The notes below the pieces were generated by a model. The model did not search any database, was not told the origin of the DNA, and saw only the letters and a list, made by a program, of their open reading frames with translations. The translations under genes and the position numbers were made by a program. From Sulfuricurvum sp. (lineage in GTDB: Bacteria > Campylobacterota > Campylobacteria > Campylobacterales > Sulfurimonadaceae), in the NCBI GenBank assembly GCA_030696775.1, contig JAUYRN010000023.1:1-51992 (forward strand): a DNA stretch of 51,992 nucleotides. Direction: 5' to 3'. Each line of letters starts with the position of its first letter. Position 1 is the first letter of the stretch. Positions 167-23,151 of this stretch are shown piece by piece.

Positions 167-214
167 ACTGCTGTAACCTTGAAAAATGTATTACTAAATC
201 TGATATGAAATTAT

Positions 215-232
215 AATGAATGATCATTCATT
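215..232. promoter_or_regulatory. Palindromic operator, site 1 (divergent tetR / receiver-gene region)
   Basis: The 18-bp perfect palindrome AATGAATGATCATTCATT lies between the leftward receiver gene and tetR. The overlapping ATTATAAT at 210-217 gives a TATAAT box on both strands, so a bound protein would block either promoter. The same core recurs upstream of hydA and of the nickel permease gene. Placement beside a TetR gene, two-fold symmetry and overlap with -10 boxes fit a TetR-type operator. That the neighbouring TetR is the binder is inferred. A second possible tetR -10 box (TAGAAT) lies at 312-317. Confidence 0.75.
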
Positions 233-381: not shown

Positions 382-1005
382 ATGCTGAAAATGAAAAATA
401 TTCCAGAAAAACCCGCCACGACAAAAAAAGAAGATCGTAAAACATCCATAATGCAAACCGCATTAAAGCTTTTCTCCACAGAAGGGTTTTATACGACAAC
501 GATGCCCTCTATTGCTAAAACATTAGGGATGAGTGTTGGAAATTTTTATAATTATTTTGCTTCAAAAGATCAGCTGGCAAAAGAGTTAATGCTGTATATC
601 TCAACGGTTTTAGGTGATAAGCTACGAGAAATCAACATGACGGACGTATCGGTAAAAGAAAAAGTCACGATGATTGTCCACATGTATTTCAGTATCGCAC
701 GCGAGCGTCCTGAGCTCATCGAATACTTTTTACGTGTTTTTCTTTCCAATCGTGAAATATTTACGAAAGAGTGTACCGGAATGGTATGCGTCTCCGGTTT
801 TGTAACAGAATTGATGCTCTTTTTCGATGAGGGGGTGCAAAGCGGAGAGTTAAAAGATCAAGATTTCTTTAGCGCCTTGGGTCTTTTTATGGGTTATTTG
901 GGAGGAATGGTGTTTTTAAATGGAGAAGAGGTTCTTACGAAACCATTGAATGAATACGAAACCGCTATAGCAGAGAACATCTACAATGCTCTGCGAAAAC
1001 AATGA
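382..1005 (+). CDS. TetR/AcrR-family transcriptional regulator
   Basis: The product has 207 residues, a normal length for the family. Residues about 22-70 form the TetR helix-turn-helix domain: a helix ending in LFSTEGF, the TTMPSIAKTLGMSVGNFYNY recognition unit, then FASKDQL. The rest is a helical ligand and dimerisation domain of unknown specificity. The stop overlaps the start of the hydrogenase small-subunit gene by 4 nt (ATGA), so the regulator is translationally coupled to that hydrogenase. A perfect palindrome lies upstream at 215-232 and near-copies lie before hydA and the nickel permease gene, so it probably represses the hydrogenase regulon and its own region. A second in-frame ATG at 391 is an alternative start, and neither has a strong ribosome-binding site. 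The inducer is unknown. Confidence 0.85.
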   Translation: MLKMKNIPEKPATTKKEDRKTSIMQTALKLFSTEGFYTTTMPSIAKTLGMSVGNFYNYFASKDQLAKELMLYISTVLGDKLREINMTDVSVKEKVTMIVHMYFSIARERPELIEYFLRVFLSNREIFTKECTGMVCVSGFVTELMLFFDEGVQSGELKDQDFFSALGLFMGYLGGMVFLNGEEVLTKPLNEYETAIAENIYNALRKQ

Positions 1006-1886
1006 AACCACGCTTAAAAGTTTTATGGCTCCAAGGGGTGACCTGTAACGGTAACACCCACTCTTTTCTAAATTATCCTCATCTCTCTTACGTCTTAGAA
1101 ACCTTTGAATTTCTCTACCATTCTCTTTTGCCTTCTACCTATACGCTCGAAGAGATTTCGACCTGTGTGCATGAATGTGATATTCTCATTTTTGAGGGAG
1201 CGTATGACCCTCGTATGGAGCGTGTCGGAACGAGTTTGGAAACATTGGTTAGTTATTATGGCAGCCATGCAAAGTATGTGATAGCAGCGGGGAGTTGTGC
1301 GAGTTTCGGGGGAATGTTTAAGCACAGCGATCCAGAACATATTACGGGACTTGGATTTGATGAAAAAGAGCCAAAAGGTCCTCTCGCCAGCAGTCCAAAG
1401 CTGATTAATCTCTCAGGCTGTCCGATTCATCCGGAGTGGATGGGATATACCCTTCGTATGATTGCCGATAACAAACCCATAGCAGTAGATGAGTTGCGTC
1501 GTCCTAAAGAGCTTTATTCCTATTTGGCGCATCATGGGTGTACCCGAAATGAATATTTTGAGTGGAAGGTCGATTCGGATCATTTTGGTACCAAAGAAGG
1601 ATGTTTGTTTTATAAGCAAGGGTGTCGTGGTCCGATGACGCATGCATCGTGCAATAAAATATTATGGAATGATGTGAGTTCTAAAACACGAGTTGGGACT
1701 CCATGTTTTGGATGCACGGAGCCTGATTTTCCGCGAATCAATATGTTTGAGACTAAAACCAACATGTCGATTCCTCAGGATGTTCCGGTGGGAATTTCCA
1801 AACGAAGTTATTTAACCATGGCGGGTATCGCAAAATCGTTTCACATACCGCGCTTAGAGAAGAGGCTGATCGATGATGACGCGTAA
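1002..1886 (+). CDS. Group-2-like soluble [NiFe] hydrogenase small subunit
   Basis: This 294-residue electron-transfer subunit starts directly with the flavodoxin-like domain and has no Tat signal, so the enzyme should be cytoplasmic. Cluster ligands can be followed: proximal C15, C99 (GSCASFGG) and C140 (SGCPIHPEW); distal H177, C180, C201 and C208; medial C217, C235 and C238. The fourth proximal ligand, normally cysteine in CxGC, is asparagine N18 in TCNGNTHS. The start overlaps tetR by 4 nt and the stop overlaps the large-subunit gene by 14 nt. The family includes H2 sensors (HupU/HoxB type) and cytoplasmic uptake enzymes. Coupling to a regulator favours sensing, but the N-terminal motif is unlike the CGGC motif I associate with HupU, so the subgroup stays open. 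Confidence 0.85.
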   Translation: MKPRLKVLWLQGVTCNGNTHSFLNYPHLSYVLETFEFLYHSLLPSTYTLEEISTCVHECDILIFEGAYDPRMERVGTSLETLVSYYGSHAKYVIAAGSCASFGGMFKHSDPEHITGLGFDEKEPKGPLASSPKLINLSGCPIHPEWMGYTLRMIADNKPIAVDELRRPKELYSYLAHHGCTRNEYFEWKVDSDHFGTKEGCLFYKQGCRGPMTHASCNKILWNDVSSKTRVGTPCFGCTEPDFPRINMFETKTNMSIPQDVPVGISKRSYLTMAGIAKSFHIPRLEKRLIDDDA

Positions 1887-3180
1887 ATGGATTGAACGGA
1901 TCGAAGGAGAAGCTTCGATTGGATTTGAATTTGAAGAAAATAAAGTCTCTTTTTCCAGCATTACTTTTCCCCATTTTCGAGGAATGGAGGCGATTTTACA
2001 GTCAAAACCTGCCATGGATGCATTGGTTATTACTCCTCGTGTCTGTGGGATATGCGGTCATTCGCATTTGTTTGCTGCTGTTAGGGCGATCGAATCGGTC
2101 TATGCCAACAGCGGTTTTCCTCTCGAAATTTCCCCTAAAGCCCAAATCTTGCGAGAACTGACTCTCTCATTAGAGTTGATACAAAATCACTTTAAATGGC
2201 TCTATATGGTCATTTATCCAGAATTATCTCATTTACTTCAACGTCCTATCGCTGATTCGTGTCGTCTTAAAGGAGCGTATGCGGCATCCCTTGCGACCAA
2301 AATACTCGCTATTTTTGCCGGGCAATGGCCTCATTCCTCGTACATGATACCAGGCGGCGTGACGTGTGATCCAACCTATGTCGATACCGTACGTGCAATG
2401 GGAATACTGGATGAGTTGATGCGATGGTTTGAAAAAGAGGTGACCGGTATTTCAATGGAGGAGTATCTTAGTATCTCTTCCGCTAAAGATCTTTCACATG
2501 TGAGCGGAGATATGCGAGACATTGATAAAATGCTTCGTACGGCCAAGATGCATAAACAAGGGTTTTCATATGATCGCTATATGGTGTTAGGAAATCATGG
2601 ATTTTCGAATCCTGCAAAGTATATGCATCGACGGATGGCAAAAGTAAATCCTCAATTGGTCATGTTGGAAGATCCTTATACGGTGAATGAAAAAACCTAC
2701 GCTAAAAATGCTCTCTATCAAAATAACGCCTTTGAAACCGGTCCATTAGCGCGTGCCGTTACCAATGGTGTCCCTTTCATCAAGTACCTGCACCGGTATT
2801 TCCGCGACAGTACCTATACTCGTACTATGGCTAGAAGTTACGAAACAGCACTGCTTTTGAATCATTGTAAAATGCTTTTGAACTCGATAAAGATAGATGA
2901 ACCATCGTTTATCGAGCCGCTTAAAAAAATCACATCTTTGAGTGGAGAGGGCGTGGGCATTGTCGAAGCACCAAGAGGTCCACTGATCCATAAAGTGACG
3001 CTAAACAAGGGGATAATCGATCACTACACGTTGATAACCCCGACACAGTGGAATCTTGCATGCGGTTCCCCTCAAACCCCAGGACCTGCTCAAAAAGCGA
3101 TGATAGGAGCAGATTCTATCGAGACGGCGACGTTCACTTTTCGATCTTTTGATGTCTGTTCGGTGTGTACGACGCATTAA
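1873..3180 (+). CDS. Group-2-like [NiFe] hydrogenase large subunit lacking a C-terminal extension
   Basis: This is the 435-residue catalytic subunit. The nickel ligands are present: C58 and C61 in RVCGICGHSH, C429 and C432 in DVCSVCTTH. The reading frame stops immediately after H435, the residue where most large subunits are cut by a maturation protease, so this subunit would need no proteolytic step. A missing extension is a known trait of H2-sensing HupV/HoxC subunits. The usual DPC is DVC here. The gene overlaps the small-subunit gene by 14 nt, and an ATG one codon later is equally possible. With the TetR gene it forms a three-gene operon, followed by a stem-loop and then hydABC. Confidence 0.87.
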   Translation: MMTRKWIERIEGEASIGFEFEENKVSFSSITFPHFRGMEAILQSKPAMDALVITPRVCGICGHSHLFAAVRAIESVYANSGFPLEISPKAQILRELTLSLELIQNHFKWLYMVIYPELSHLLQRPIADSCRLKGAYAASLATKILAIFAGQWPHSSYMIPGGVTCDPTYVDTVRAMGILDELMRWFEKEVTGISMEEYLSISSAKDLSHVSGDMRDIDKMLRTAKMHKQGFSYDRYMVLGNHGFSNPAKYMHRRMAKVNPQLVMLEDPYTVNEKTYAKNALYQNNAFETGPLARAVTNGVPFIKYLHRYFRDSTYTRTMARSYETALLLNHCKMLLNSIKIDEPSFIEPLKKITSLSGEGVGIVEAPRGPLIHKVTLNKGIIDHYTLITPTQWNLACGSPQTPGPAQKAMIGADSIETATFTFRSFDVCSVCTTH

Positions 3181-3232: not shown

Positions 3233-3293
3233 CGTCTGTAATTGCCTGTTTTTTATTGTAAATAATATTCGTTTAAGTTATTTCGCCGTACTA

Positions 3294-3311
3294 TATGAAT
3301 GATTATTCATT
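3294..3311. promoter_or_regulatory. Palindromic operator, site 2 (hydABC promoter)
   Basis: TATGAATGATTATTCATT matches the perfect palindrome at 215-232 at 16 of 18 positions and lies 18 nt before the hydA start codon. A -10-like TACTAT at 3289-3294 ends where the site begins, so the palindrome covers the expected transcription start. This fits steric repression of hydABC by the TetR regulator. The binder is inferred from the shared motif. Confidence 0.72.
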
Positions 3312-3329: not shown

Positions 3330-4568
3330 ATGTCCGATAGAGTAGAAGCGGTTAAAAAACTGTTTACGTCGAAAAGCTCACGTATTGAAACGAACAAAGG
3401 CGATACTTATTATCAGGAGTTGTTTGTTAGATGTGAGGCACGTTTGAACGAATTACGTGCGAATACACCTGCTAATAGACTTGATTTTTCGGATCTTTTA
3501 GAAGAGAACGGAATTGATAGACGAGAATTTATGAAATGGGCGAGTGCAACGACGGCAATGCTGATGCTTCCTCCTATGTTTACCCCTCTTGTTGCAGATG
3601 CTGCAGTGATGATGAATCGTGCACCGGTTATTTGGCTTGAACTTCAAGACTGTGCGGGTAACTCTGAAGCGCTTTTACGTGCAGATGGACCAAAAATCGA
3701 TGAGATCGTACTTGATATCATCTCACTCGAATACCACGAGACATTGCAGGCAGCATCAGGCCATCAAGCTGAAAAACAGCTAGAAGAAGCGATGGAACAC
3801 TTCAAGGGACAATATCTTTTATTCGTAGAAGGTGCTATACCTATGGGGATGGACGGTCAATACGGAACCATCGGCGCAAGCGGTGAAACATTCCATGACC
3901 ATTTAGTTCGTTGTGCTGCTAATGCTGCTGCAGTTGTTGCTGTTGGTAGCTGTGCTACTTTCGGCGGTATTCCTGCTGCTTCTCCAAATCCTACGGGTGC
4001 AGTTGGAGTTATGGATGTTATTAAAAATAAACCACTTATTAACATCCCTGCATGTCCTGCCAATCCTGCCAATATGGTCGGAGTAATTTTACATTATCTT
4101 TTGACTGGACAGGTTCCTGAACTTGATTCTCTTCTTCGTCCTAAGTTTGCATTTGGATACCGTATCCATGACAACTGTGAACGCCGTGCTCACTTCGACG
4201 CGGGTGAATACGTAGAAGAGTGGGGCGATACTGGAGCTCAAAATAATTTCTGTCTTTACAAAATGGGATGTAAAGGTCCTATGACCTTTAACAACTGTTC
4301 CATCGTTCGTTATAACGAAGCGGTCAACTGGCCAATCGGAGTAGGACGTGGTTGTATCGGTTGTTCAGAGCCCGATTTTTGGGACAAATACGCATACGAG
4401 CGCCCTATGGCCAATGCGAAAATCAAAGCACCTACCGGTGGTGTTGAAAAAACCGTTGACGAATTTGGTTTGGGCATGTTAACTGCAGCTGGAATCGGTA
4501 TTGCGATCCATGCAGCAGCAAGCGCCGTAGCCGGTAAACGAGAAAAATCAGGAGAGAGCCATGAGTAA
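3330..4568 (+). CDS. hydA: Periplasmic uptake [NiFe] hydrogenase small subunit HydA
   Basis: The product has 412 residues. A Tat signal (DRREFMKWASATTAMLMLPP, RR at 64-65) directs folded export, preceded by an unusually long N-terminal stretch of about 60 residues. After cleavage near residue 90 the Fe-S subunit begins. The proximal-cluster motif reads DCAGNSE (C108, N111), again with asparagine where CxGC has its second cysteine. Later motifs GSCATFGG, GCKGPMTFNNC and GCIGCSEPDFW are normal. A hydrophobic C-terminal segment (LGMLTAAGIGIAIHAAASAV) anchors the enzyme. An AAGGA ribosome-binding site precedes the ATG. It overlaps hydB by 8 nt. This is the electron-transfer subunit of the Wolinella/Helicobacter-type quinone-reducing hydrogenase. 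Confidence 0.93.
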   Translation: MSDRVEAVKKLFTSKSSRIETNKGDTYYQELFVRCEARLNELRANTPANRLDFSDLLEENGIDRREFMKWASATTAMLMLPPMFTPLVADAAVMMNRAPVIWLELQDCAGNSEALLRADGPKIDEIVLDIISLEYHETLQAASGHQAEKQLEEAMEHFKGQYLLFVEGAIPMGMDGQYGTIGASGETFHDHLVRCAANAAAVVAVGSCATFGGIPAASPNPTGAVGVMDVIKNKPLINIPACPANPANMVGVILHYLLTGQVPELDSLLRPKFAFGYRIHDNCERRAHFDAGEYVEEWGDTGAQNNFCLYKMGCKGPMTFNNCSIVRYNEAVNWPIGVGRGCIGCSEPDFWDKYAYERPMANAKIKAPTGGVEKTVDEFGLGMLTAAGIGIAIHAAASAVAGKREKSGESHE

Positions 4569-6336
4569 GCATATTGTAGTTGACCCTATTACACGTATCG
4601 AAGGGCATTTGCGTATTGAAGCAGTTATTGATGATAATAATACGATCGTAGATGCGTACAGCTCTTCGACGATGTTTCGCGGAATTGAGACCATTTTACA
4701 AGGGCGTGATCCACGTGACTGCGGATTATTGGCAATGCGTATTTGTGGTGTTTGTACAGGTACACACTATCAGCGTTCAATCGAAGCTGTAGAAGATGCG
4801 TTCAAAATCACCATCCCTAAAAATGCACGTCTTGTACGGAATTTGATTCAAGGTGCATTGTATCTTCATGACCACGTGGTTCACTTTTATCACCTTCATG
4901 CGCTTGATTTCGTAGATGTTGTTTCTGCTCTTTCAGCGGATCCTGTGAAAACTGCGGCAGAAGCTCGTAAATGGGCTGCTGTTTCAGGTGAATCACCTTT
5001 TACTGATGGTGAAAGCGAATTTAAAGCGATCCAAGATCGTGTTGCTAAATTTGTAAAACAAGGTCGTTTGGGAATTTTCGGAAATGGATACTGGGGCAAT
5101 CCTCACTATAAATTGACTCCGGAACAAAACCTTATTGGTGTTGCTCACTATTTGCAAGCGTTGGACATTCAACGTAATATGGCAAAAATGCAGGCAATCT
5201 TAGGCGGTAAAAACCCGCATCCACAAAGTATCGTTGTTGGTGGTGTAACGTGTGTTCAGGATATCCAAAATCCTGCACGTCTTGCACTCTTCAAATCATT
5301 GCTTTTAGAGGCGCGTAAATTTATCAAGCAAGCTTATCTTCCAGATGTCTATATGGCAGGAACTATGTATGCTGGTGAAGCTACCGATTCTAAAGCAACC
5401 TTTACTGAGCTTATGGCTGGCAAAGGTGTCGGCGGAACAGGCGGCGGATTGCTCAACTATATGAGTTACGGTGATTTCCGTCTCGATGATACAGGTTTTT
5501 ACAAATCAGCACTTCTCTTCCCAAGCGGAGTTGTTTATGGTGGAGATATCAGCAAAGTAGCAGATATTGATCCGGATAAAATTGCTGAAGACGTTACTCA
5601 CGCATGGTACAAAGGGGATAAACCTCTCCATCCGTATGAGGGACAAACGATTCCTGAATATACAGGGCTTGATAAACGTGAAGACGGAATCGCTTATCTT
5701 AAAACAAAAGAAAAATACAGCTGGATTAAATCTCCGATCTACAATGACACTCGTGTTGAAGTAGGACCGTTGGCACGTATGGTTATCGGTGTTGCACGTA
5801 AAGATGCACGTATTAGTAAATATGTGACTCAGTTTTTAGAGCGCGGAAATTTACCGATTGCAGTGTTGTTTAGTACAGTCGGGCGTACTGCTGCGCGTGC
5901 TATTGAAACTGAATTGATGGCAGATGTAATGGTTGATTGGATCGACGAACTTGCTAAAAATGTTGCATCTGGTGATAAAAGCACATGGACTGAGTTTGAC
6001 TTTGATGCCGTAAGTGTTAGTACTAAAGGTCGCGGTATGGCGGAAGCTCCTCGTGGCGCACTGGGTCACTGGGTTCGTATTGAAAATGGAAAAGTAGCCA
6101 ACTACCAAGCTGTCGTCCCATCAACATGGAACGCCGCTCCGCGTGATCACAAAGGGCGTTTAGGTGCGTATGAAGCAAGTTTGATCGGAACCAAAGTTGC
6201 CAATCCAGAGCAGCCTCTTGAGATTATTCGAACCATTCACAGTTTTGACCCTTGTATTGCTTGTGCCGTACACGTTGTCGATACCAAAGGTAAAGAGCTT
6301 GCTGTTTACAAAGTAGATACTGTTTGCAGTATTTAA
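4561..6336 (+). CDS. hydB: Periplasmic uptake [NiFe] hydrogenase large subunit HydB
   Basis: This 591-residue catalytic subunit oxidises H2 at the NiFe(CN)2CO site. Nickel ligands are C62 and C65 in RICGVCTGTH, and C565 and C568 in DPCIACAVH. Twenty residues follow H571 and should be removed by a maturation protease, in contrast to the large subunit at 1873-3180. It has no signal peptide of its own and is expected to be exported with HydA through Tat. A good AGGAGA ribosome-binding site lies inside the end of hydA, and the two genes overlap by 8 nt. It is followed by repeat R1 and then hydC. Confidence 0.96.
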   Translation: MSKHIVVDPITRIEGHLRIEAVIDDNNTIVDAYSSSTMFRGIETILQGRDPRDCGLLAMRICGVCTGTHYQRSIEAVEDAFKITIPKNARLVRNLIQGALYLHDHVVHFYHLHALDFVDVVSALSADPVKTAAEARKWAAVSGESPFTDGESEFKAIQDRVAKFVKQGRLGIFGNGYWGNPHYKLTPEQNLIGVAHYLQALDIQRNMAKMQAILGGKNPHPQSIVVGGVTCVQDIQNPARLALFKSLLLEARKFIKQAYLPDVYMAGTMYAGEATDSKATFTELMAGKGVGGTGGGLLNYMSYGDFRLDDTGFYKSALLFPSGVVYGGDISKVADIDPDKIAEDVTHAWYKGDKPLHPYEGQTIPEYTGLDKREDGIAYLKTKEKYSWIKSPIYNDTRVEVGPLARMVIGVARKDARISKYVTQFLERGNLPIAVLFSTVGRTAARAIETELMADVMVDWIDELAKNVASGDKSTWTEFDFDAVSVSTKGRGMAEAPRGALGHWVRIENGKVANYQAVVPSTWNAAPRDHKGRLGAYEASLIGTKVANPEQPLEIIRTIHSFDPCIACAVHVVDTKGKELAVYKVDTVCSI

Positions 6337-6355
6337 CTGATGTTACGCACTTTCT

Positions 6356-6433
6356 GGGCAAAGCCCATAAAGTGGCAGGGACAAATGTCCCTACAACCCC
6401 CTAAAGTTACCCGTATCTTTCGAATACGGGAGA
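6356..6433 (+). repeat. Interspersed repeat R1, copy A
   Basis: This 78-nt element between hydB and hydC is repeated in inverted orientation at 13493-13570 with about five mismatches. It contains two hairpins: AGGGACA-AA-TGTCCCT at 6377-6392 and CCCGTAT-7nt-ATACGGG at 6410-6430. It looks like a REP- or MITE-type element. Folded in the transcript, it could set the relative levels of hydAB and hydC. Confidence 0.85.
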
Positions 6434-6446
6434 AAGAGAGAACGCT

Positions 6447-7151
6447 ATGAGTTATAAACAAGTCAAACGTATGACGCCAGCCATGCGTATTATCCATTGG
6501 GTAAATGCGATCTGTATGGTTGGAGCCGTCATCACAGGTCTCTATATTGGGCACCCGTATTATCAAACGTTTATGGCGGATGGTGCGGTCGATAAATATG
6601 TGATGGCGTGGAACCGTTACGGACACTTTATCATTGCGATTATTTTTGATGTAACATCAGTATTGATCGCCTATCTTTATTTTTTCAGTCGTTTTGAGAA
6701 GCCTTATAAGAAGCTCATTCCGAATGCAAAAAATATTACAGAGTTTAAAGCAGTGTTGATCAATCTCTTAACGTTAAATCGTAAAAAAGAGTTTGATTCA
6801 TCTCATGCTGACAGTTTTAATACGGTCTATTTTACAGTTTTTCACCTGCTTCTCGTGTGGATGCTGTTTACGGGTCTACAGCTGTATGTTCATGGATTGG
6901 GATCAGGAATCAGTTCTATTGGATCATGGTGGCCGTGGATGCTTCATCTTGTGACTGACTGGACGATTCCTGTTACAGGCGGAAGTTTGATGGATGTCCG
7001 TATTGCTCACCATATGAGTATGTGGTTTATTGTCTGCTGGGTGGTATTTCATATCTATTACCAAGTATGGAGAACTATTTTCTGGAAAGAGGCGGATATC
7101 GCTATTGTTATCGGCGGATCTAAGTTTGTTAAAGACGATACAGAAAAATAA
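6447..7151 (+). CDS. hydC: Hydrogenase cytochrome b subunit HydC
   Basis: This 234-residue diheme cytochrome b has four predicted membrane helices, at about residues 14-36, 55-78, 125-146 and 182-212. It anchors HydAB to the membrane and passes electrons from H2 to menaquinone. Likely heme-ligand histidines are H17 in IIHWVNAICM, those in YGHFIIAIIF and VFHLLLVWM, and those in the last helix around MWFIVCWVVFHIYYQ. It lies 110 nt after hydB, separated by repeat R1, in the order hydA-hydB-hydC known from Wolinella and Helicobacter. It is followed by a REP-like palindrome. Confidence 0.92.
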   Translation: MSYKQVKRMTPAMRIIHWVNAICMVGAVITGLYIGHPYYQTFMADGAVDKYVMAWNRYGHFIIAIIFDVTSVLIAYLYFFSRFEKPYKKLIPNAKNITEFKAVLINLLTLNRKKEFDSSHADSFNTVYFTVFHLLLVWMLFTGLQLYVHGLGSGISSIGSWWPWMLHLVTDWTIPVTGGSLMDVRIAHHMSMWFIVCWVVFHIYYQVWRTIFWKEADIAIVIGGSKFVKDDTEK

Positions 7152-7269: not shown

Positions 7270-9189
7270 ATGGCATTTACGTTAGAGGTAATGACCTCTT
7301 TTTCACAACCTATGATTAAAAATTATTTGATTTCTATTATCCGTACATTCGGGATTAAAGCCGTTGTTCATCAACAAAAGACAAAGATTATTTGTGCTTT
7401 TGACAGTAGTAATGAGAAGCTCCAAGAGTGTCTTGAATCGATCGGAACTAATCTTCCTGCATCATGTTTTATGACGAAAAGTGAGTTTTACGATATCGAG
7501 GGAGAACCTGAAACGGTTCCTGATTTTGATATCGAGTATCCGATCGCGTTGGGATTGTGTCCCGGTTGTCAAAAAGAGATGTTCGATCCAGGATCAAAGC
7601 GGTACTATTACCCTTTTACGCACTGTACGCATTGCGGGGGGCAATATGCTTTTTTCGATCATTATCCCTATGTGCGAAGTAATACAGCACTTTCGTATGT
7701 GAAGCCGTGTCCTGCGTGTGAAAAAGAATCCGTCAGTTTTGGGCGACGTGAAAAACAAGTATTGAACTCTTGTCACGAATGCGGAATACCTGTCAAATTG
7801 ATCCATAAAGGCAATGAACGTTATGCCAATGATCCGGGAAGTTTTCGAACCATGTTTGAAGTTGCCGCGAAAGCATTGCGTGACGGTAAAACACTTTTGA
7901 TGAAAACGACGATGGGATATCGGCTCTTTTATCGTACGGATAAACTGGAACAGGGTTCGGTTTTAATGCTGACCAATGCGATGAAAATCACAGAATATTG
8001 TTCACTGATCAATGATGAATTTAATGCACTGCTAAGTATCGAGCGTCCGATTATTCATGCAGCACTCAAAGATGAAACCCTGCGCAGTACGTTTGGCGCA
8101 ACCATTGATGTCAAATATCCGGATGAAGGCTTTTCAATCCTCTTGGGAAAAGAATTGACGCTTTTAGGTCTTGATTTTATTGCATACAGGGCATTAGAGT
8201 CTGCTGTTGAAGCAGATTTTAGTATGGACTTTGATTTAAATATCCATTCGCAAAGTGATATGCGTCTTTTTATCAACAAAGATGTGAAATTTATCACTTC
8301 AGGTGAGCGTGTTTCATTTCCTGCTCGTCTCCCATTTGGTACAGATACTCTTAGTATTGCCCATGGATTGGTAGGTATTAAAGATGAAAAAGGGATGCTG
8401 TTTGATCAGATGGAGCGTTTTTCCTCTGCTTCTACGCTGAAAGTCATTCAGCTCGAAACGGAAGAACCTGCCGTTGAATCTGCCAACTTTCACACGATGG
8501 CAGAAGATGAAGCGTCCTTTATGTCGGTCATCGCGGAGCATAGTAAATTTGGTACAAAAGTGGTCGGAGCTTATTTCGAAGGGGAACCGTCATTTTTGTA
8601 TTATGATGGAAAAAAAGTGATTCGCGTTGTCCCTCCTAAACCGTTTAGCCCTGAGGGACTGTTGGAAAAAATGGCGACGTTGCGAGAGGGATCGGATCGT
8701 TTGGTAGCAAATATGCGAACGAAACTTCCTGAGATGGTTGAAGCATTGTCATCACTAAAAGAGGGTGCGACTCTTTTTGAAGCGACGGCTATCATTTTGG
8801 ATTTGGAAGAGAAAAGTTATGAAGGAGTGATGAAAGAGGCATTGAAATTCGTCGGAAAAGGCGGACTTCAAATCGATACGAAAGTAGAAGATAACCGATT
8901 TAATCATGTTGCTTTTTTATCCAGTATCATTAGCTACCGTCTTGCAGATGTCGATGCCGTCTATTTGAGCTATTCTATTTTTGAATCATTTGGCGATTAT
9001 TTCAGTGAACTTCTCACCGAAATAAAAGGAAAAACCAAAGCATCGGATGTGGTGCTTTGCGGATCGTATTTCGCTGGACAGTCTCTTTTTAGCCGTTTAC
9101 AGAGAAACTTGAAAACAACACCTCCGTTAATGAATGTAAGTTACCCTATTGGGAAAGAAAGCTGTGTCGTTGGCGGAGTCTTTTTATAG
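7270..9189 (+). CDS. hydE: HydE, HypF-like hydrogenase formation protein
   Basis: This 639-residue paralogue of the carbamoyltransferase HypF appears degenerate. Residues about 97-171 carry four CxxC pairs (C97/C100, C119/C122, C147/C150, C168/C171) in HypF-like wording such as DPGSKRYYYPF. Residues about 197-225 resemble the YrdC-like entry (GKTLLMKTTMGYRLFYR against GKIIALKGLGGFHLMCD in HypF). The C-terminus ends like the Kae1-like domain (VVLCGSYFAGQSLFSRL). The N-terminal 90 residues lack the acylphosphatase motif, and the HHxAH metal motif of HypF is reduced to FNHVAF. HydE is known from Wolinella and Helicobacter as needed for hydrogenase formation. The biochemical role here is inferred. 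A full hypF lies downstream. Confidence 0.75.
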   Translation: MAFTLEVMTSFSQPMIKNYLISIIRTFGIKAVVHQQKTKIICAFDSSNEKLQECLESIGTNLPASCFMTKSEFYDIEGEPETVPDFDIEYPIALGLCPGCQKEMFDPGSKRYYYPFTHCTHCGGQYAFFDHYPYVRSNTALSYVKPCPACEKESVSFGRREKQVLNSCHECGIPVKLIHKGNERYANDPGSFRTMFEVAAKALRDGKTLLMKTTMGYRLFYRTDKLEQGSVLMLTNAMKITEYCSLINDEFNALLSIERPIIHAALKDETLRSTFGATIDVKYPDEGFSILLGKELTLLGLDFIAYRALESAVEADFSMDFDLNIHSQSDMRLFINKDVKFITSGERVSFPARLPFGTDTLSIAHGLVGIKDEKGMLFDQMERFSSASTLKVIQLETEEPAVESANFHTMAEDEASFMSVIAEHSKFGTKVVGAYFEGEPSFLYYDGKKVIRVVPPKPFSPEGLLEKMATLREGSDRLVANMRTKLPEMVEALSSLKEGATLFEATAIILDLEEKSYEGVMKEALKFVGKGGLQIDTKVEDNRFNHVAFLSSIISYRLADVDAVYLSYSIFESFGDYFSELLTEIKGKTKASDVVLCGSYFAGQSLFSRLQRNLKTTPPLMNVSYPIGKESCVVGGVFL

Positions 9190-9278
9190 GGTACTTGTGA
9201 CGAAAGTATTTTGAAGATTATTAGCGGTATCACCAAATAAATATGTCTAAATATTCACCATCAATGGTATTGATCTCT

Positions 9279-9287
9279 TGGTATAAT
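9279..9287 (+). promoter_or_regulatory. Extended -10 promoter of the chemoreceptor gene
   Basis: TGGTATAAT at 9279-9287 is an extended -10 element 37 nt upstream of the ATG at 9325. Nothing else stands out in the 135-nt gap after hydE. Confidence 0.55.
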
Positions 9288-9324
9288 ATGTTAACTTTTC
9301 ATGAAATCAAGAGGATAAATACGC

Positions 9325-11151
9325 ATGACAATACAATTTAGATTAATACTTGCAGCAGCACTAAGTTTAATGGTGATGCTAATAATAAGCATTGTCTCAT
9401 ACATGACCACCGAATCGGTTCGAATCAAAGGTGAAACGTACAATAAAATCATCTTATCAAAAGATTTGATCGCGGACATATTACCACCTCCTGCGTATAT
9501 TATTGAGGCACGTCTTGTGACCTATGAGATGGTTGATGCAGAAAATAAAGAAAAATTAGAGCCTTTAGTGACGAAGTTTTCAGGACTTGAAAAAGATTTT
9601 CTTGATCGTCAGAGTTACTGGGCAGCCAGCGAACTCAATGACGAACTAAAAGGGATGATTACATCTGGGGCTAAGTCAGCGGCTTTGGAATATTTCGATA
9701 CCGTTAAGAGTCAATTGATCCCTCTGGTAGAAAATGGTAACAGTACCGAAGCAAGAATTCTTCTTCATGGTAAATTGGAAAAAATCTATATGGAGCATCG
9801 AAATAATATTGATGCGATTGTGGAAAAAGCAACCCTTCAAGCAAAAGCGGATGAAGAAGTTTCGGATGAGCTTCTTTCATCGGGAATGACGCGAATGGTA
9901 TTAAGCGGAATGATCGGTATGATGATTTTGTTTGCCGTATTTTTTCTTACCAGTCGTGCCATCGTTGGACGGATTCGCCAATTTGGTCAGATCGCTTCTG
10001 ATCTTGCATCGGGGGATGCTGATTTGGACAAACGAATGCCCAGTCAAGGTGTTGATGAGATTGATGATGCATCGGCACGCTTTAACCTATTTTTGGACAA
10101 AGTAGCCAACATCGCTCATGATGCCCAGATAGATGCTCATAATGCTCATGTAGCAAACGAAAAAGCCAATAAAAGTTTAGTCCATTCGGATATGATGATT
10201 GACTTATCTAGTCACATGAGCGGAGGCGCAGTGAGTGGAGCTAAAGATTTACAAGAGTCGGCTCAACATGCAGTAAGCAGCCTCACGGAAGTTAATGCTC
10301 TTAATGCATCGACCGCTGAAGTCGTTTTGGAAGTAAAAGACAGTACCGGCGGAATCATTGAGGCGATTAGTCTTATTTCAGAGATGATCAATGAAAACCG
10401 CGATAATGCACAAGAACTCGAAAAAAGCATTGGTGATATCTCACAGGTAATCTCACTGATCAAAGATATATCGGATCAAACCAATTTATTAGCTCTCAAT
10501 GCTGCCATCGAGGCTGCGCGTGCAGGAGAACATGGACGTGGTTTTGCGGTGGTTGCCGATGAGGTACGGAAACTTGCGGAGCGTACTCAAAAAGCAACTT
10601 CTGAGGTTGAATTGACGATTAATATGCTCAAACAAAATGCAGGATCGATGGTTGAGAGCAGTGAAACGACTGAAAAATATGCGGCTGATTCGAGACAAAA
10701 ATTGAACGATTTCACGCAATCATTAAGTGAACTGATCGAAAAATCTGAGATTATTAAACATGATAATGAGTTTATATCGTTTGAGATTTTCGGTATTTTG
10801 GCAAAACTCGATCATTTAGTCTTTAAGCTCAACGCTTACGGATCTGTTTTCGATAATGAGCTAAAAGCACAGTTTGGTGATCATCACGGTTGCCGGTTGG
10901 GCAAATGGTATGAACATGGAGAAGGTAAAACTGCATTTGGAGCTACAGATTCATACCGTCGTCTTGAAGCACCTCATAAAATCGTCCACGAGAATGTCCT
11001 GCGTGCGCTAGAGTGCGTCAAGCGAAACGATTGCGTTGAACGACGCGATGAGATTTCATCTGCCTTTGCTGAAACTGAACGTCAAAGTTCTCTCTTGTTT
11101 GGAATCCTCAATGATATGATTAGTGAGGCTAGAAATAGATCTCATTCATGA
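9325..11151 (+). CDS. Methyl-accepting chemotaxis protein with C-terminal CZB zinc domain
   Basis: This 608-residue transmembrane chemoreceptor has TM1 at about residues 6-28, a helical periplasmic sensor domain of about 160 residues, and TM2 at about 190-212 ([20 protein letters not shown]). A HAMP and coiled-coil region follows, then the conserved signalling tip [19 protein letters not shown] and [14 protein letters not shown]. The last 120 residues form a chemoreceptor zinc-binding (CZB) domain, recognised by the first His in [25 protein letters not shown] and the HKIVHENV helix. The stimulus is unknown. CZB domains elsewhere tie taxis to zinc or oxidants. It sits between hydE and hypF and ends 17 nt before hypF, so energy taxis linked to hydrogen use is possible. 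Confidence 0.9.
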
Positions 11152-11168
11152 ATATTTAGGGAGAGAAA

Positions 11169-13535
11169 GTGTCTGAACAATACGTCCACGTGCACATCAT
11201 AGTACGTGGAATCGTGCAGGGGGTAGGATTTCGCCCTTTTGTCTATCGTGAAGCCAAGACACACGGCTTAAAGGGTTTTGTCATTAATACTGCTGATGGA
11301 GTCGTCATCGAAGCTGAAGGGCTGGAATATGAGGCATTTATCAACGCTTTACGAGAAAATCTTCCCAAACATGCCCGTATCGATTCGATGGAAATTGTTG
11401 AGAGTGAATCCTGCGGTTATACCGATTTTGAAATCCGTGAGAGCACGCTAGGTTTTGGGAGTGTTGCTATACCTTTAGACACAGCATTGTGCAGTGCGTG
11501 TGAAGCAGAGATAGATGATCCTTCCAATCGTCGTTACCATTATCCTTTTATCAACTGCACCGATTGTGGGCCTCGTTACACCATCATTCAAATCCCTCCT
11601 TATGATCGTGTTCGAACGTCAATGAAACATTTTACGATGTGCGATGCCTGTCATACGGAATATACCGATCCTTCTTCTCGCCGTTATCATGCCGAACCGA
11701 TCAGTTGTCCTAACTGCGGACCGCAGTTAACGTTTTATATTAAAACGGCAGATGAGCAAAGACCATCTACCTACGTTAACACTGGGTTTCCCTCAGCGGG
11801 AAGCTCACGAACAGAAGAGACGTGCTTAAAAAACTCACAATTTATTGAAGCGGAAGGTGATCCCATCGCGTTGGCGGTTGAGATGCTCAAAGAGGGAAAA
11901 ATTATCGCGCTCAAAGGATTGGGGGGATTTCATCTGATGTGCGATGCTACATCCGATACTGCTGTGGCTGAATTACGACGTCGAAAACACCGAAAAGCCA
12001 AACCCTTAGCTGTGATGTTTCGCTCACTCGAACAACTCCAAGCGTATGCGGTGGTGAACGAGGAAGAGAGAGCTCATATCATCGGAGCCATCAAACCCAT
12101 AGTGATAGTACATGCCAAAAGCGGGACAAATCTCTCTGAGCACGTCGCCCCTTCGATTGACCGACTGGGAGTATTTCTACCCTATACGCCGCTTCATCGA
12201 CTCCTGTTTCAGAGAGTTGATTTTCCGTTGATTGCTACAAGTGCCAACATCAGTGATGAACCCATCATCGTAAAAGCCGATGAGATTGCCGACAGACTGG
12301 GAAATGTTGTGGATGGGATTTTGACCCATAATCGCACCATAGTTAATGCGCTGGATGATTCCGTTATTCAAATTGTACAGGGGCACGTTGTGATGCTTCG
12401 GATGGGGCGTGGATTTGCACCGCATACGCTTCTTTTGACAAATACCATTGATAAAAACATTTTAGCCCTCGGAGCCCATCAAAAAAGTGCCATAGCACTG
12501 GGCGTCAAAAAAAACATGGTGTTGAGCGGGCATATCGGTGATTTAGGAAGCATCGAATCAGATGGGTATTTTGAAAAGACGATTCAAACGTTTAAGCGAT
12601 TTTATGAGTGTGAACCGACCTTACTTATTAGCGATTTGCACCCTCATTACTCCTCAACACGTTATGCCAAAGAACAAAAAAAAGAACACTATGGTGTTCA
12701 GCACCATTATGCACATATTCTCGCCTGCATGGGAGAATATACGTTGAATGAAAAGGTACTTGGGTTTGCGTTTGACGGTACGGGATACGGTGAAGATGGG
12801 AGTCTATGGGGCGGTGAGGTGATGATTGCCGATACGCATGGATATGAACGAATCGGGTTTTTAAAACCGTTTGCTCTTTTGGGCGGGGATAAAGCGATCA
12901 AAGAACCTCGTCGGATTGCGTTGTCACTGTTGTTTGAGTGTTACGCTTTGGAAGAAGTACTGGTATTGAAATCTCCTACTACGGAATCTTTTTTAGAGTA
13001 CGAAATCCGTCAGCTTCACCACATGTGGACGAAACAGCTCAACGCTCCGCGAAGCAGTTCGATGGGTCGATTGTTTGATGCAGTTGCCTCATTGGGCGGA
13101 TTTATTCAAACACTTGACTATGAGGGGCAGGGAGGGATGATAATGGAATCATTTGTCGATGACTCGATTACGGAACCGTTTGATTTTACTGTGACAGATA
13201 GGGCGGTTGTTTTATCCTCGATGGTTGAACAAATAGTTGCGTTAAGCACTCAAAGCGATGCTAAACGCCTTATTGCCAGCCGATTTATTGCTACAATAGA
13301 AGCAATGATGGAATATTTTGTTAATTTACACCCTGAATTACCCGTTGTCATCGGTGGTGGTGTGTTTCAAAACCATGCTTTGATGAGCCGATTGTACCGA
13401 GGTTTCGGCGAGGGACGATTTTACGCACAACAGCAAACTCCTGTTAATGACGGGGGAATTGCACTTGGACAGTTATACTATGCTTTGTATAATCTCCCGT
13501 ATCCGAAAGATACGGGTAGCTTTAGGGGGTTGTAG
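11169..13535 (+). CDS. hypF: Carbamoyltransferase HypF
   Basis: This 788-residue protein carries out the first steps of cyanide-ligand synthesis for the NiFe site, passing a carbamoyl group from carbamoyl phosphate to HypE. Domains in order are acylphosphatase at about 5-90 (RGIVQGVGFRPFVYREA), paired zinc fingers at about 108-185 (C108, C111, C130, C133 and a second set), YrdC-like at about 225-400 (KGLGGFHLMCDA) and Kae1-like from about 480 (HHYAHILACM, FDGTGYGEDGSLWGGE, VIGGGVFQNHAL). The start is GTG with a GGGAGAGA ribosome-binding site; no ATG fits better. The last 13 residues, from LPYPKDTG onward, and the stop are encoded by repeat R1 copy B, so the natural end was probably near ALGQLYYALYN. 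Confidence 0.95.
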   Translation: MSEQYVHVHIIVRGIVQGVGFRPFVYREAKTHGLKGFVINTADGVVIEAEGLEYEAFINALRENLPKHARIDSMEIVESESCGYTDFEIRESTLGFGSVAIPLDTALCSACEAEIDDPSNRRYHYPFINCTDCGPRYTIIQIPPYDRVRTSMKHFTMCDACHTEYTDPSSRRYHAEPISCPNCGPQLTFYIKTADEQRPSTYVNTGFPSAGSSRTEETCLKNSQFIEAEGDPIALAVEMLKEGKIIALKGLGGFHLMCDATSDTAVAELRRRKHRKAKPLAVMFRSLEQLQAYAVVNEEERAHIIGAIKPIVIVHAKSGTNLSEHVAPSIDRLGVFLPYTPLHRLLFQRVDFPLIATSANISDEPIIVKADEIADRLGNVVDGILTHNRTIVNALDDSVIQIVQGHVVMLRMGRGFAPHTLLLTNTIDKNILALGAHQKSAIALGVKKNMVLSGHIGDLGSIESDGYFEKTIQTFKRFYECEPTLLISDLHPHYSSTRYAKEQKKEHYGVQHHYAHILACMGEYTLNEKVLGFAFDGTGYGEDGSLWGGEVMIADTHGYERIGFLKPFALLGGDKAIKEPRRIALSLLFECYALEEVLVLKSPTTESFLEYEIRQLHHMWTKQLNAPRSSSMGRLFDAVASLGGFIQTLDYEGQGGMIMESFVDDSITEPFDFTVTDRAVVLSSMVEQIVALSTQSDAKRLIASRFIATIEAMMEYFVNLHPELPVVIGGGVFQNHALMSRLYRGFGEGRFYAQQQTPVNDGGIALGQLYYALYNLPYPKDTGSFRGL

Positions 13536-13570
13536 GGACATTTGTCCCTGCCAATTTTTGGGCTTTGCTC
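13493..13570 (-). repeat. Interspersed repeat R1, copy B
   Basis: This is the inverted copy of the element at 6356-6433, identical at about 73 of 78 positions. It overlaps the end of hypF and supplies its last codons and stop. The same two hairpins are present. Together the copies form inverted repeats around a 7-kb block holding hydC, hydE, the chemoreceptor gene and most of hypF. Confidence 0.85.
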
Positions 13571-13603
13571 GAAAATAGTGATATATTAAATAAAAGGATA
13601 AGA

Positions 13604-14161
13604 ATGAACGCTAAAGTCGCATTGATAGGATCAGGAAACGCATTTTTTATGGATGAAGGGATTGGACTGTACGCGGGAAAATACCTCAAAGAAAACTACA
13701 CATTTGAGCCTGAATTGGACATTATCGATGGTGGGACGCTTGGTTTTGGTTTAATGCCTTTGTTGCAAGAATATGAGATTGTGTTGATCGTCAATACCAG
13801 TTCTGATGATGGTAAAATCGTAGGAGATATTGATGTTCTCAGCGGTGACGAGCTCATTGCCAACCAAGGGATCAAAAAAACGGCGAATGAAGTCGAGATT
13901 ACCGAAATGCTTCAAATCTGTTCGATGGCAAACCATTGTGCGCAAACCTCCATGGTGAGTATCGTCCCCGAAGACATTATCAGCGTTCATGTGGGCGTCA
14001 CACCTGCCTTACGCGAAAAATGGCTGGAGTATATCGATGTGATTGTGAGTGAACTGGCAAAATGTGGGATTAACAGTACGCGAAAAGAGTCTGTGATGGG
14101 GCTGGATGAGATACTCGACCAGTTTGCCAATCCCAGTATCGAACACGGTAAGGGATTTTAA
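13604..14161 (+). CDS. HydD/HycI-family maturation-protease paralogue with substituted metal ligands
   Basis: The product has 185 residues from the ATG at 13604, which has an AAAGGATAAG ribosome-binding site. An upstream in-frame TTG at 13565 lies in repeat R1 and is rejected. The fold is recognisable from GSGNAFFMDEGIG at the N-terminus, IIDGGTLGFGL and SIVPEDI. In this family a Glu, an Asp and a His bind nickel and guide cleavage of the large subunit. Here the Glu remains (E18), but the Asp position is N64 in LIVNTSSDD and the His position is N95 in ANEVEITEML. It may therefore be a non-cleaving chaperone or have other specificity. It lies 3 nt before its paralogue. Confidence 0.8.
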   Translation: MNAKVALIGSGNAFFMDEGIGLYAGKYLKENYTFEPELDIIDGGTLGFGLMPLLQEYEIVLIVNTSSDDGKIVGDIDVLSGDELIANQGIKKTANEVEITEMLQICSMANHCAQTSMVSIVPEDIISVHVGVTPALREKWLEYIDVIVSELAKCGINSTRKESVMGLDEILDQFANPSIEHGKGF

Positions 14162-14164
14162 TCC

Positions 14165-14728
14165 ATGTCGATTGTTGTACTGGGTGTCGGGAATGTACTC
14201 GAAGAAGATGACGGAATCGGTATTTATGCGGCAGCATATCTTCGTGCCAATTATACATTGAGTCCTCATGTTCAGGTCATAGACGGCGGAGTGGAGGGGA
14301 TCAATCTTCTCAATCTTTTTTTAGAAAATGACCACATTATCATCCTTGATACGATCAATCTCGATGACAGTGCAGGAAGTATCTACAATATCCCCTCTTA
14401 TGAACTTAGCGGATACGGACTTAACAGCGGCGGTGCGCATGAAGTGGGTGTGATGCAGTGTCTGGATATGATCGAGCTGATGGGGAAACCGCTTCCAAAA
14501 TCGAATGTATTGGGGATTGTCCCTGCCACGATTTCTTTTCGCATGGGACTAAGTCCAGAACTCACGGCTAGGTTTGATAGCTATCTCGGAACGATTATCA
14601 ACTATCTCAAAAGCTGTGATATTGAGGTGGTAAAAAAAGAGATACAGCAAACGCTCGTCGAAATCATCGATGAGTTTAAATATCCTACTAGTCTTGATCC
14701 CGCTTCAAAAACTCCTCAAGCTCTGTAA
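14165..14728 (+). CDS. hydD: Hydrogenase maturation protease (HydD-like)
   Basis: This 187-residue member of the HycI/HyaD endopeptidase family probably removes the 20-residue extension of HydB. Visible motifs are GVGNVLEEDDGIG, VIDGGVEGINLL, the metal-binding D62 in ILDTINLDD and H92 in AHEVGVMQCL, and LGIVPATIS. The Glu of the family (E16 in E. coli HybD) is Asp here (D16), so the ligand set is D/D/H. It follows its paralogue by 3 nt. The last 41 nt overlap the convergent PAS-GGDEF-EAL gene. Assignment to HydB rather than another substrate is inferred, because the other large subunit in this window has no extension. Confidence 0.83.
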   Translation: MSIVVLGVGNVLEEDDGIGIYAAAYLRANYTLSPHVQVIDGGVEGINLLNLFLENDHIIILDTINLDDSAGSIYNIPSYELSGYGLNSGGAHEVGVMQCLDMIELMGKPLPKSNVLGIVPATISFRMGLSPELTARFDSYLGTIINYLKSCDIEVVKKEIQQTLVEIIDEFKYPTSLDPASKTPQAL

Positions 14729-21254: not shown

Positions 21255-21260
21255 TATAAT
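21255..21260 (+). promoter_or_regulatory. -10 box of the nickel permease-hyp operon
   Basis: TATAAT lies 39 nt before the permease ATG. It ends 8 nt before the palindromic core at 21269-21282, so transcription should start at about 21267, inside the operator. No clear -35 box is seen; upstream DNA is T-rich. Confidence 0.65.
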
Positions 21261-21266
21261 CGTCCA

Positions 21267-21284
21267 TCTGAATGATTATTCATA
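21267..21284. promoter_or_regulatory. Palindromic operator, site 3 (nickel permease-hyp operon)
   Basis: The core TGAATGATTATTCA (21269-21282) is identical to the core upstream of hydA and differs by one base from the perfect palindrome near tetR. It lies directly downstream of a TATAAT box, where a repressor would block initiation. All downstream genes to 28169 run in the same direction, so this site could control nickel uptake and the whole hypBCDEXA set. Confidence 0.72.
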
Positions 21285-21299: not shown

Positions 21300-21938
21300 A
21301 TGGAACTGGGTTTAATTGTAATTTTTTGGTACGGTATCTTACACGCGTTCGGTCCCGACCATTTGACCGCTATTGCTGATTTTTCAATCGGTAAAGAGGC
21401 CAAAAAAACATTTTTAATTGTTGGTGCTTTTGCGGTAGGGCATGGAATAATGCTTTTTATGTTTGCAAAAATTCTGCAATATTATACACTGCCTGAAGCG
21501 TTCTTGGCCTATGGTGATGTGATTGCATCGAGTGTGATTCTCTCCATTGGTATCTACCTGCTTTATATGGTTTTTGCCAATAAAATTCATTTAAAAACCC
21601 ATACCCATGAGCATAAAAAACACGTTCATATTTGGTTTGGGAATGAACATCAACATGAATCGTCTACCACTACATCCGCATTTGGGGTAGGTGTGTTGAT
21701 GGGGATTGGCGGTGTACGAGGTATGTTGGTCACGCTTGGCGTGCTCCATGGACAAGCTATCGATTTTAGCATGATACTCGCATTTATAGCGGGAGTCATG
21801 GTGGTGTTCTTTAGTTTCGGTTTGGTTATTTCGTGGATCAATAAAGACATTTTGACCAATATCCAAAATGTGCGACGAGTTTTCGCTACGGTAGGTGTTA
21901 TTTCTGTCCTTGTGGGCGGGAATATGCTTTTGGCGTAA
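21300..21938 (+). CDS. NicO/RcnA-family nickel permease
   Basis: This 212-residue membrane protein has about six helices. The nickel/cobalt transporter signature appears as HAFGPDHLTAIADFSIGK in the first helix and VGHGIMLFMF in the second. A histidine-rich loop (KTHTHEHKKHVHIWFG, then HQHESS) separates helices 3 and 4 and may bind metal. Import of Ni2+ for hydrogenase is inferred from position: the TetR-type operator shared with hydABC precedes it and hypB follows. Related proteins can also be efflux pumps (RcnA), so direction is not proven. Repeat R2 lies between it and hypB. Confidence 0.8.
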   Translation: MELGLIVIFWYGILHAFGPDHLTAIADFSIGKEAKKTFLIVGAFAVGHGIMLFMFAKILQYYTLPEAFLAYGDVIASSVILSIGIYLLYMVFANKIHLKTHTHEHKKHVHIWFGNEHQHESSTTTSAFGVGVLMGIGGVRGMLVTLGVLHGQAIDFSMILAFIAGVMVVFFSFGLVISWINKDILTNIQNVRRVFATVGVISVLVGGNMLLA

Positions 21939-21946
21939 AATAATTA

Positions 21947-22022
21947 TCTGCCTCGCATGAGGCAAGCTTTAGTGCCTTAGCGGCGAGCGTAGCTAAAGGG
22001 ATGTATTCCTTTGGCGTTTAAA
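21947..22022 (+). repeat. Interspersed repeat R2, copy 1
   Basis: An element of about 76 nt begins TCTGCCTC-GCAT-GAGGCAAGC (a hairpin) and ends GGCGTTTAAA. It fills most of the gap between the nickel permease and hypB. Copies lie at 26978-27054 and, inverted and longer, at 37518-37630. Shared wording includes TTTAGTGCC.TAGCGGC.AGCGTAGC with copy 2. Confidence 0.82.
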
Positions 22023-22042
22023 AAATATTAAGGATTTTAACT

Positions 22043-22855
22043 ATGTGTAAAGACTGCGGATGTTCAATTACGGATCACGATCACCACAACCATGACGACC
22101 ACCATCACGATCACGACGGTCATCACCACGATCATGGAGATCATCATTCTCACAGCCATCAGGCGGCGCATGAAACATTGCACCATAATCCACAGCTTAA
22201 CGACAGTAAAACGATTGCAGTAATCAAAAAGATTTTGGACAAAAATGATCAGGAAGCGCACCATAACCGTGAGCATTTTAATGAAAACGGTGTTTTAGCC
22301 ATCAACCTGATGAGTTCACCGGGAAGCGGAAAAACCGCATTGTTAGAAGCAATGGCTGGAATTTCTCCGTTTAAATTTGCTGTAATCGAAGGGGATTTGG
22401 AAACGTCGCGTGATGCGGATCGTCTGATTGCAAAAGGGATCAATGCTGTACAGATTCAAACAGGAAGTGCCTGCCATCTGGATGCGTTTATGGTTCATAA
22501 AGGGCTTCATGATTTACCGATTGCCGATTTGGACGTTTGTTTCATCGAAAATGTAGGTAACCTCGTGTGTCCTGCGAGCTATGACGTGGGATCACATCTC
22601 AATATCGTTTTGGTTTCCATCCCTGAGGGTGAAGACAAAATTGCCAAATATCCGGTGATGTTTCGAGCTGCCGATCTGATCTTGATCACAAAAACCGATT
22701 TACTCCCGTATTTTAAATACGACATGGAACGTGAGAAATCCGAAGCCCGTAAAATCAAACCGAATGTTGATATTTTAGAGGTCAATGTTAACGATGAGGC
22801 TTCCGTTAAAAGAGTGATTGAATGGATTGAATTTAAACGAAAGATGAGAGCTTAA
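22043..22855 (+). CDS. hypB: Hydrogenase nickel-insertion GTPase HypB
   Basis: This 270-residue SIMIBI-class GTPase delivers nickel to the hydrogenase large subunit together with HypA. The N-terminal CKDCGC (residues 2-7) is the high-affinity nickel motif, followed by a His/Asp-rich stretch at about 11-40 likely to store nickel. The P-loop is SPGSGKTALLE at about 92-102; later GTPase motifs include VIEGDLETSRDADR, ENVGNLVCP and TKTDLL. An AAGGA ribosome-binding site lies just after repeat R2. It is followed by hypC with a 2-nt gap. Confidence 0.97.
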   Translation: MCKDCGCSITDHDHHNHDDHHHDHDGHHHDHGDHHSHSHQAAHETLHHNPQLNDSKTIAVIKKILDKNDQEAHHNREHFNENGVLAINLMSSPGSGKTALLEAMAGISPFKFAVIEGDLETSRDADRLIAKGINAVQIQTGSACHLDAFMVHKGLHDLPIADLDVCFIENVGNLVCPASYDVGSHLNIVLVSIPEGEDKIAKYPVMFRAADLILITKTDLLPYFKYDMEREKSEARKIKPNVDILEVNVNDEASVKRVIEWIEFKRKMRA

Positions 22856-22857
22856 TT

Positions 22858-23151
22858 ATGTGTTTATCGATACCTTCAAAAGTGGTCAAAATTGACACAG
22901 AGTTCAATATCGCAACCGTCGATACGATGGGAGTACAGCGAACCGCAAGTTTGGAACTGATGGAGGAGGGCTCAGTTGTGCTTGGCGATTATGTCCTTTT
23001 GCACATCGGTTTTATTATGAACAAAATCGATGAAGAGGATGCTATGGAGTCGTTACGCGTGTATAGGGAGATCCTCGAAGTACTGGATGAAGAAGAACGT
23101 CGGGCCCTTGTTTTAGAAGATGACAATTGTGCCAATCGAGAAGCTCCATGA
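22858..23151 (+). CDS. hypC: Hydrogenase assembly chaperone HypC
   Basis: This 97-residue small chaperone forms a complex with HypD that carries the Fe(CN)2CO unit to the large subunit. The N-terminal MCLSIPSKVV carries Cys2, the residue that binds iron and the large subunit after Met removal. The rest gives the OB-fold (TVDTMGVQRTASLELM, GDYVLLHIGF) and an acidic tail. It overlaps hypD by 4 nt (ATGA). Confidence 0.96.
   Translation: MCLSIPSKVVKIDTEFNIATVDTMGVQRTASLELMEEGSVVLGDYVLLHIGFIMNKIDEEDAMESLRVYREILEVLDEEERRALVLEDDNCANREAP

Follow-up and report, generated by a model that had tools for sequence, protein, structure and literature searches.

The window analyzed here, i.e., the whole 51,992-nucleotide stretch of Sulfuricurvum sp. 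DNA, comes from contig C32 of a 2.55-Mb genome that shares its GTDB family with G009. It contains a three-gene module encoding a TetR-family repressor and the two subunits of a cytoplasmic [NiFe]-hydrogenase (Table 1), and the Pfam domains found in the module are TetR_N, the NiFe hydrogenase small-subunit domains, and NiFeSe_Hases. The open reading frames confirm that tetR overlaps the small-subunit gene by 4 nt (ATGA), and that the small- and large-subunit genes overlap by 14 nt. The original prediction, made from this sequence, also described the hydrogenase as an unprocessed, cytoplasmic enzyme, and both features that it named are present: there is no Tat signal in the small subunit, whose start (MKPRLKVLWLQGVTCNG) runs straight into the proximal-cluster motif, and a stop codon directly follows the last active-site motif (DVCSVCTTH) of the large subunit. 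HydA, encoded by the next gene 3′ of the module, does carry a Tat motif (RREFMKW).

Table 1. Genes, promoter elements, and predicted operators of the module and its predicted targets (window coordinates)
Feature	Position	Strand	Remarks
-10-like hexamer TATAAT, tetR-huaSL promoter	212..217	+	Read from sequence; 1-nt overlap with operator
Predicted operator copy 1, TGAATGATCATTCA, tetR promoter	217..230	.	Exact copy; predicted autoregulation
TetR-family repressor gene tetR	382..1005	+	Pfam PF00440, alignment, model pLDDT 91.5
Cytoplasmic [NiFe]-hydrogenase small subunit, HupU/HuaS-like	1002..1886	+	No Tat signal
[NiFe]-hydrogenase large subunit, HupV/HuaL-like, 435 aa	1873..3180	+	Four active-site Cys invariant, no C-terminal extension
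TTTAAGTTATT, resembling the Campylobacter -35 motif TTTAAGTnTT	3272..3282	+	Read from sequence; PMC3824568
-10-like hexamer TACTAT, hydA promoter	3289..3294	+	Read from sequence
Predicted operator copy 2, TGAATGATTATTCA, hydA promoter	3296..3309	.	Conserved in 34/34 loci
hydABC, predicted target: membrane-bound respiratory hydrogenase, Tat signal and cytochrome b	3330..7151	+	
HypF-like protein, MCP, HypF, two maturation proteases	7270..14728	+	Probably same regulated region
-10-like hexamer TATAAT, nickel-permease/hyp promoter	21255..21260	+	Read from sequence
Predicted operator copy 3, TGAATGATTATTCA, nickel-permease/hyp promoter	21269..21282	.	
Predicted target: nickel-permease-like protein, hypB, hypD, hypE, HypX-like	21300..27063	+	

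Comparison of 41 loci showed that the large-subunit C-terminus lies three residues past the last cysteine in every case, and that these proteins therefore have no protease extension; going by established hydrogenase maturation, the large subunit would not need a maturation protease step. The L1 and L2 CxxC pairs and the Fe-S ligands expected of a [NiFe]-hydrogenase are invariant in 41/41 loci with one exception, the second proximal cysteine of the small subunit, which is an asparagine in the window copy. This cysteine is also absent from Huc, the group 2a enzyme of Mycobacterium smegmatis, which is the top PDB sequence match of the small subunit, and the top PDB match of the large subunit by both fold and sequence. 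Unlike the window enzyme, the Huc-type large subunits in the 2a loci that we compared have a C-terminal extension and an accompanying protease gene.

The absence of a Tat signal in the window hydrogenase, and of a large-subunit extension in 41/41 loci, are both group 2b features. For example, HoxBC/HupUV of group 2b (Cupriavidus necator pHG1) is likewise a cytoplasmic, two-subunit enzyme with neither element and, as with the window pair, HoxBC is encoded beside hydrogenase genes. The likeness to HupUV/HoxBC that had been proposed therefore holds for architecture, but not for membership. In a large-subunit tree of 62 rows, with no Aquificota enzymes among them and with labels 2a and 2c assigned by tree position and known members rather than by HydDB, the Campylobacterota proteins form one clade on a long stem (1.77 changes per site), apart from 2a, 2b, and 2c-like enzymes; the 2b and Campylobacterota clades each have 100/100 support, and AU tests of the sister group gave p 0.2 with 2b and p 0.19 with 2a, values at which neither placement is rejected. 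The tree speaks neither for nor against a place of the clade among high-turnover uptake enzymes. A partner kinase, as expected nearby for group 2b, is not found: as originally stated, no histidine kinase adjoins the pair in the window, and HoxJ-like kinases occur in only 3 of the 41 neighborhoods (approximately 17 kb each), at a distance of 3 to 4 kb. On tree position and the missing kinase together we reject HoxBC/HupUV membership. In C. necator pHG1 the HoxBC neighbors are a kinase-like ATP-binding protein and a sigma-54 regulator, whereas the window pair has a TetR within its operon, and the window-type large subunit is approximately 50 residues shorter than that of HoxBC. The pair could still be a HoxBC/HupUV-type sensor signaling to a histidine kinase encoded at a distance, with TetR as a separate layer of control, and the shared lack of a Tat signal and C-terminal extension fits this; given that no kinase neighbor is conserved, and that the large subunit falls outside group 2b in the best tree, although the AU test does not reject a sister relation (p 0.2), we consider it very unlikely.

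Published work places the Campylobacterota enzymes of A. butzleri and Sulfurospirillum in group 2d, and calls the function of this group unresolved and possibly regulatory (PMC12286921, PMC10052474). Among the closest described systems are HuaSL/HupSL of Campylobacterota and Aquifex hydrogenase III, with the 2d label of the window enzyme resting on PMC12286921. We found no description of a TetR partner, an operator, or a regulon in the literature on group 2d, and our single scan for group 2d relatives returned 2a-, 2b-, and 2c-like enzymes from other phyla and none from Aquificota. Sulfurimonadaceae also contain a second, different group 2 (2c-like) hydrogenase (L197 and L217:5000-7500), which in L197 has a C-terminal extension and is adjoined by a protease-like gene, with the start of a GGDEF-type gene also present.

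The pairing of TetR and hydrogenase extends across the phylum. Our survey of 298 Campylobacterota genomes identified the TetR in 69, the large subunit in 68, and both in 67, and in all 67 the two genes are on the same strand. The gap between them is 830-926 bp in 65 of these 67 genomes, which is the length of the small-subunit gene alone. TetR is directly upstream of the hydrogenase in 41/41 neighborhoods, and the spacing between tetR and the small-subunit gene is near zero in nearly all; together with the co-occurrence (Fisher p ~3e-63, uncorrected for phylogeny), this demonstrates a pairing far beyond chance. The sole large subunit without a TetR (G295) is near a contig end, and in G204 the TetR is present as a remnant with a stop codon. 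In G143 the hydrogenase is lost, and the TetR, its cysteines, and the hydA site described below are retained, showing that the TetR can persist alone. Outside the phylum, in a search of non-Aquificota genomes, no member of this TetR subfamily was present at E 1e-25 in 345 genomes (phylum of G388) or in 398 genomes (phylum of G391), or among 35 further genomes that encode group 2 hydrogenases (best score, 74 bits). Two plasmids are worth recording separately. A 49.8-kb plasmid of Sulfurimonas paralvinellae (L208; NZ_CP041407.1) carries the tetR-hydrogenase-hydABC set with hyp genes, and a review states that group II hydrogenases are absent from vent Sulfurimonas; on a Runella slithyformis plasmid (L211:84-1768), a group 2a hydrogenase operon is closely preceded by two TetR genes.

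Many loci with the module also contain an inverted repeat upstream of hydA, of the kind expected at the target promoter of a TetR and predicted to be bound by this one. With no preset motif, each of 9216 spaced 5-bp palindromes was counted in the sequence upstream of hydA in 34 loci, and TGAAT-N4-ATTCA ranked first, with exact copies in 25/34 upstream regions; the runner-up, AATGA (21 loci), is a register-shifted form of the same site, and all others occurred in ≤8. When one mismatch is allowed, a further 9 loci have the site, i.e., 34/34; outside the hydA upstream regions, 675 kb of these loci contain 7 exact copies. The hydA upstream regions of 30 Campylobacterota that lack the module, a control set that, judging from genome size and family, we take to be mostly host-associated lineages, contain 0/30 exact sites and 1/30 with one mismatch. 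Three of these controls are congeneric with genomes that carry the module, and so phylogeny is partly controlled for: G116 has neither module nor site and G163 has both, and likewise G008 and G030 have neither and G291 and G297 have both. Genomes in which hydA and the module lie apart (G288, G191, G010, G131, G225, and G122) retain the site at hydA; it likewise occurs at the nickel permease in G010, G131, and G009, or at hypB in G288, G191, and G060, and, in G225, upstream of a molybdopterin oxidoreductase gene that directly follows the module. In many loci this putative operator directly abuts a -10-like hexamer, meaning that a bound protein would cover the transcription start, and often there is a TTTAAGTtATT element upstream, which matches the published Campylobacter -35 motif TTTAAGTnTT (PMC3824568).

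In the genome under study, a refined form of the site (TGAATRNNYATTCA) has four copies in 2.55 Mb, three of which are in the window (Table 1). The fourth (L138:5404-5417; G000:C18:214403-214416) lies between nikR and a divergent gene for a TonB-dependent receptor, which suggests that nickel uptake may share the regulon. The nickel-permease-like protein encoded behind copy 3 has no Pfam hit, and its family was assigned by reading the sequence only. This genome encodes a second group 1-like hydrogenase on contig C18, and no site within one mismatch is present in its intergenic regions. Near-sites with GGATAT centers occur elsewhere, and may belong to a different regulator.

Further genes in the hydrogenase region also deserve mention. 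The window encodes, at 19603-20313 on the minus strand, a 236-aa protein with a zinc-ribbon-like start (CxxC...CxxC) and no Pfam hit, homologues of which occur near the nickel-permease gene or hypB and the operator in several other genomes (L124, L125, L127, L129, and L141); it is possibly another regulator of the hydrogenase cluster. The product of 7270-9189 (plus strand) is a HypF-like paralogue with a HypF zinc finger and weak Kae1-like similarity, and is conserved beside hydABC in most loci. Within the same cluster, 9325-11151 (plus strand) encodes a chemoreceptor with a CZB zinc-binding domain, possibly a link between H2 metabolism and taxis.

The distribution of the operator also bears on a proposal made for Sulfurospirillum multivorans, where the same gene pair is present, with a TetR-like repressor directly upstream of hupSL, and where this TetR was proposed to repress hupSL (Kruse et al. 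2017, PMC5357620). Under this proposal TetR would act locally, repressing only the hydrogenase operon in which it is encoded, and both the almost silent hupL of S. multivorans (PMC5357620) and the exact site on the tetR promoter of the window are in line with it. However, an exact site is found upstream of tetR in 1/41 loci, i.e., in the window genome only, compared with 25/34 upstream of hydA, and the conserved site thus points to hydABC and hyp. On this distribution we reject a TetR that acts on its own operon only, a reading that appears highly improbable to us.

The TetR itself has the expected DNA-binding domain (TetR_N in 35/35 members) and, in the model, a TetR fold. Its C-terminal domain is unusually conserved, and identity to the window copy is 51-69% for TetR compared with 38-54% for the large subunit. 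Two cysteines, C131 and C136, are invariant in 41/41 loci and present in the further orthologues displayed; the AlphaFold model (mean pLDDT 91.5) places both in a loop of the C-terminal domain between two helices. The folds nearest to the model include Marinobacter Maqu_1417 and Bacillus FadR (3whb and 3whc), and identity to the FadR-type regulators is approximately 20%, with no sign in the window TetR that acyl-CoA is the ligand. The genome encodes two TetR_N proteins, the second of which lies among unrelated genes and does not have the cysteine pair. In G125, G225, G061, and G105 there are divergent TetR paralogues, most of which have a C-x4-C motif in this region too, offset by approximately three residues; they adjoin other genes, and some have a similar palindrome nearby. 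Such motifs are carried by L179:5541-6125, L174:5693-6349, L176:6143-6724, and L177:7891-8493, whose neighbors are nrdD-like, rhodanese-like, molybdenum-transport, or hydrogenase genes, and TGAAT-N4-ATTCA is near most of them. These paralogues may form a broader, thiol-based family of TetR regulators.

Since C-x4-C paralogues are found beside genes unrelated to hydrogenases (nrdD-like, rhodanese-like, and molybdenum-transport genes), the cysteine pair may respond to a cue other than electrons derived from H2. In the main competing explanation, TetR would repress hydABC and hyp on a general redox, thiol, sulfide, or metal cue through its own cysteine pair, and the hydrogenase would only be co-transcribed, as a low-level cytoplasmic enzyme that, e.g., supplies ferredoxin. 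This is consistent with G143, where TetR is retained without the hydrogenase, and with a ferredoxin-linked role proposed in the literature by analogy to Aquifex. However, co-transcription for convenience would not require the near-perfect co-occurrence and fixed gene order seen in 67 genomes; in S. denitrificans, transcript was present but soluble uptake activity was not detected (PMC4584964); and expression in S. multivorans is very low (PMC5357620). We judge this explanation unlikely, but to be taken seriously.

Published RNA-seq of A. butzleri with H2 showed both hynAB sets to be up 2.3- to 6.2-fold and huaSL to be down, in a comparison of H2 with acetate where over half of the genes changed (PMC12286921). 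This fits derepression, although so many genes changed. A genome whose gene order is that described for A. butzleri carries an exact site at one of its two hydA genes and a site with a mismatch at the other. Near-constitutive expression of hydB in S. multivorans (PMC5357620) is at odds with a simple H2 switch in this species.

Taken together, TetR and hydrogenase forming one regulatory unit without a histidine kinase, as originally predicted, is strongly supported by the phylum-wide linkage and by the operator at hydA and hyp. Comparative sequence data directly show linkage, co-occurrence, a conserved operator in its promoter context, invariant cysteines, and an intact active site and Fe-S ligands. 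TetR action at the hydABC and hyp promoters is very probable, with both target and repression strongly inferred from these data. We find it reasonably likely that the paired hydrogenase is the H2-sensing input of this TetR, and we favor, with similar moderate confidence, a TetR and partner hydrogenase that form an H2-responsive one-component switch over hydABC and the maturation genes. In such a switch, tetR and the sensor-like hydrogenase genes would be co-translated, and TetR would bind TGAAT-N4-ATTCA at the -10 box or immediately 3′ of it, blocking transcription from the promoters of hydABC, of the nickel-permease/hyp operon, and, in the window genome, of tetR itself. The cytoplasmic HuaSL-type hydrogenase would react with H2, and its reduced state would make TetR release the DNA, either by electron transfer through the Fe-S relay to the invariant TetR cysteine pair, or by a changed contact within a TetR-hydrogenase complex. 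We infer DNA binding by TetR, H2 as the signal, direct contact, and the cysteine mechanism. The fullest form of this model, in which the hydrogenase passes H2-derived electrons directly to the TetR cysteine switch, as a kinase-free H2 sensor across Campylobacterota controlling hydABC, nickel uptake, and hydrogenase maturation, is tentative, and we put it forward as possible.

The TetR neighbor has been suggested before, as has, separately, a sensing role for this enzyme in vent Epsilonproteobacteria, and no paper that we found brings the TetR together with the hydrogenase, the operator, and the regulon. The arrangement appears to be a bacterial way of switching hydrogen use on and off that has not been described before. 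How Campylobacterota regulate their hydrogenases in response to H2 is an open question in the papers that we found, where the cytoplasmic group 2 enzyme has been suggested to be anything from an H2 sensor to a reducer of ferredoxin. The conserved operator, the defined regulon, and the invariant cysteine pair make this question directly approachable by experiment. If true, our interpretation would provide a compact part for H2 biosensors, and would mean that organisms common in sulfidic and vent habitats use an H2-signaling design without a histidine kinase.
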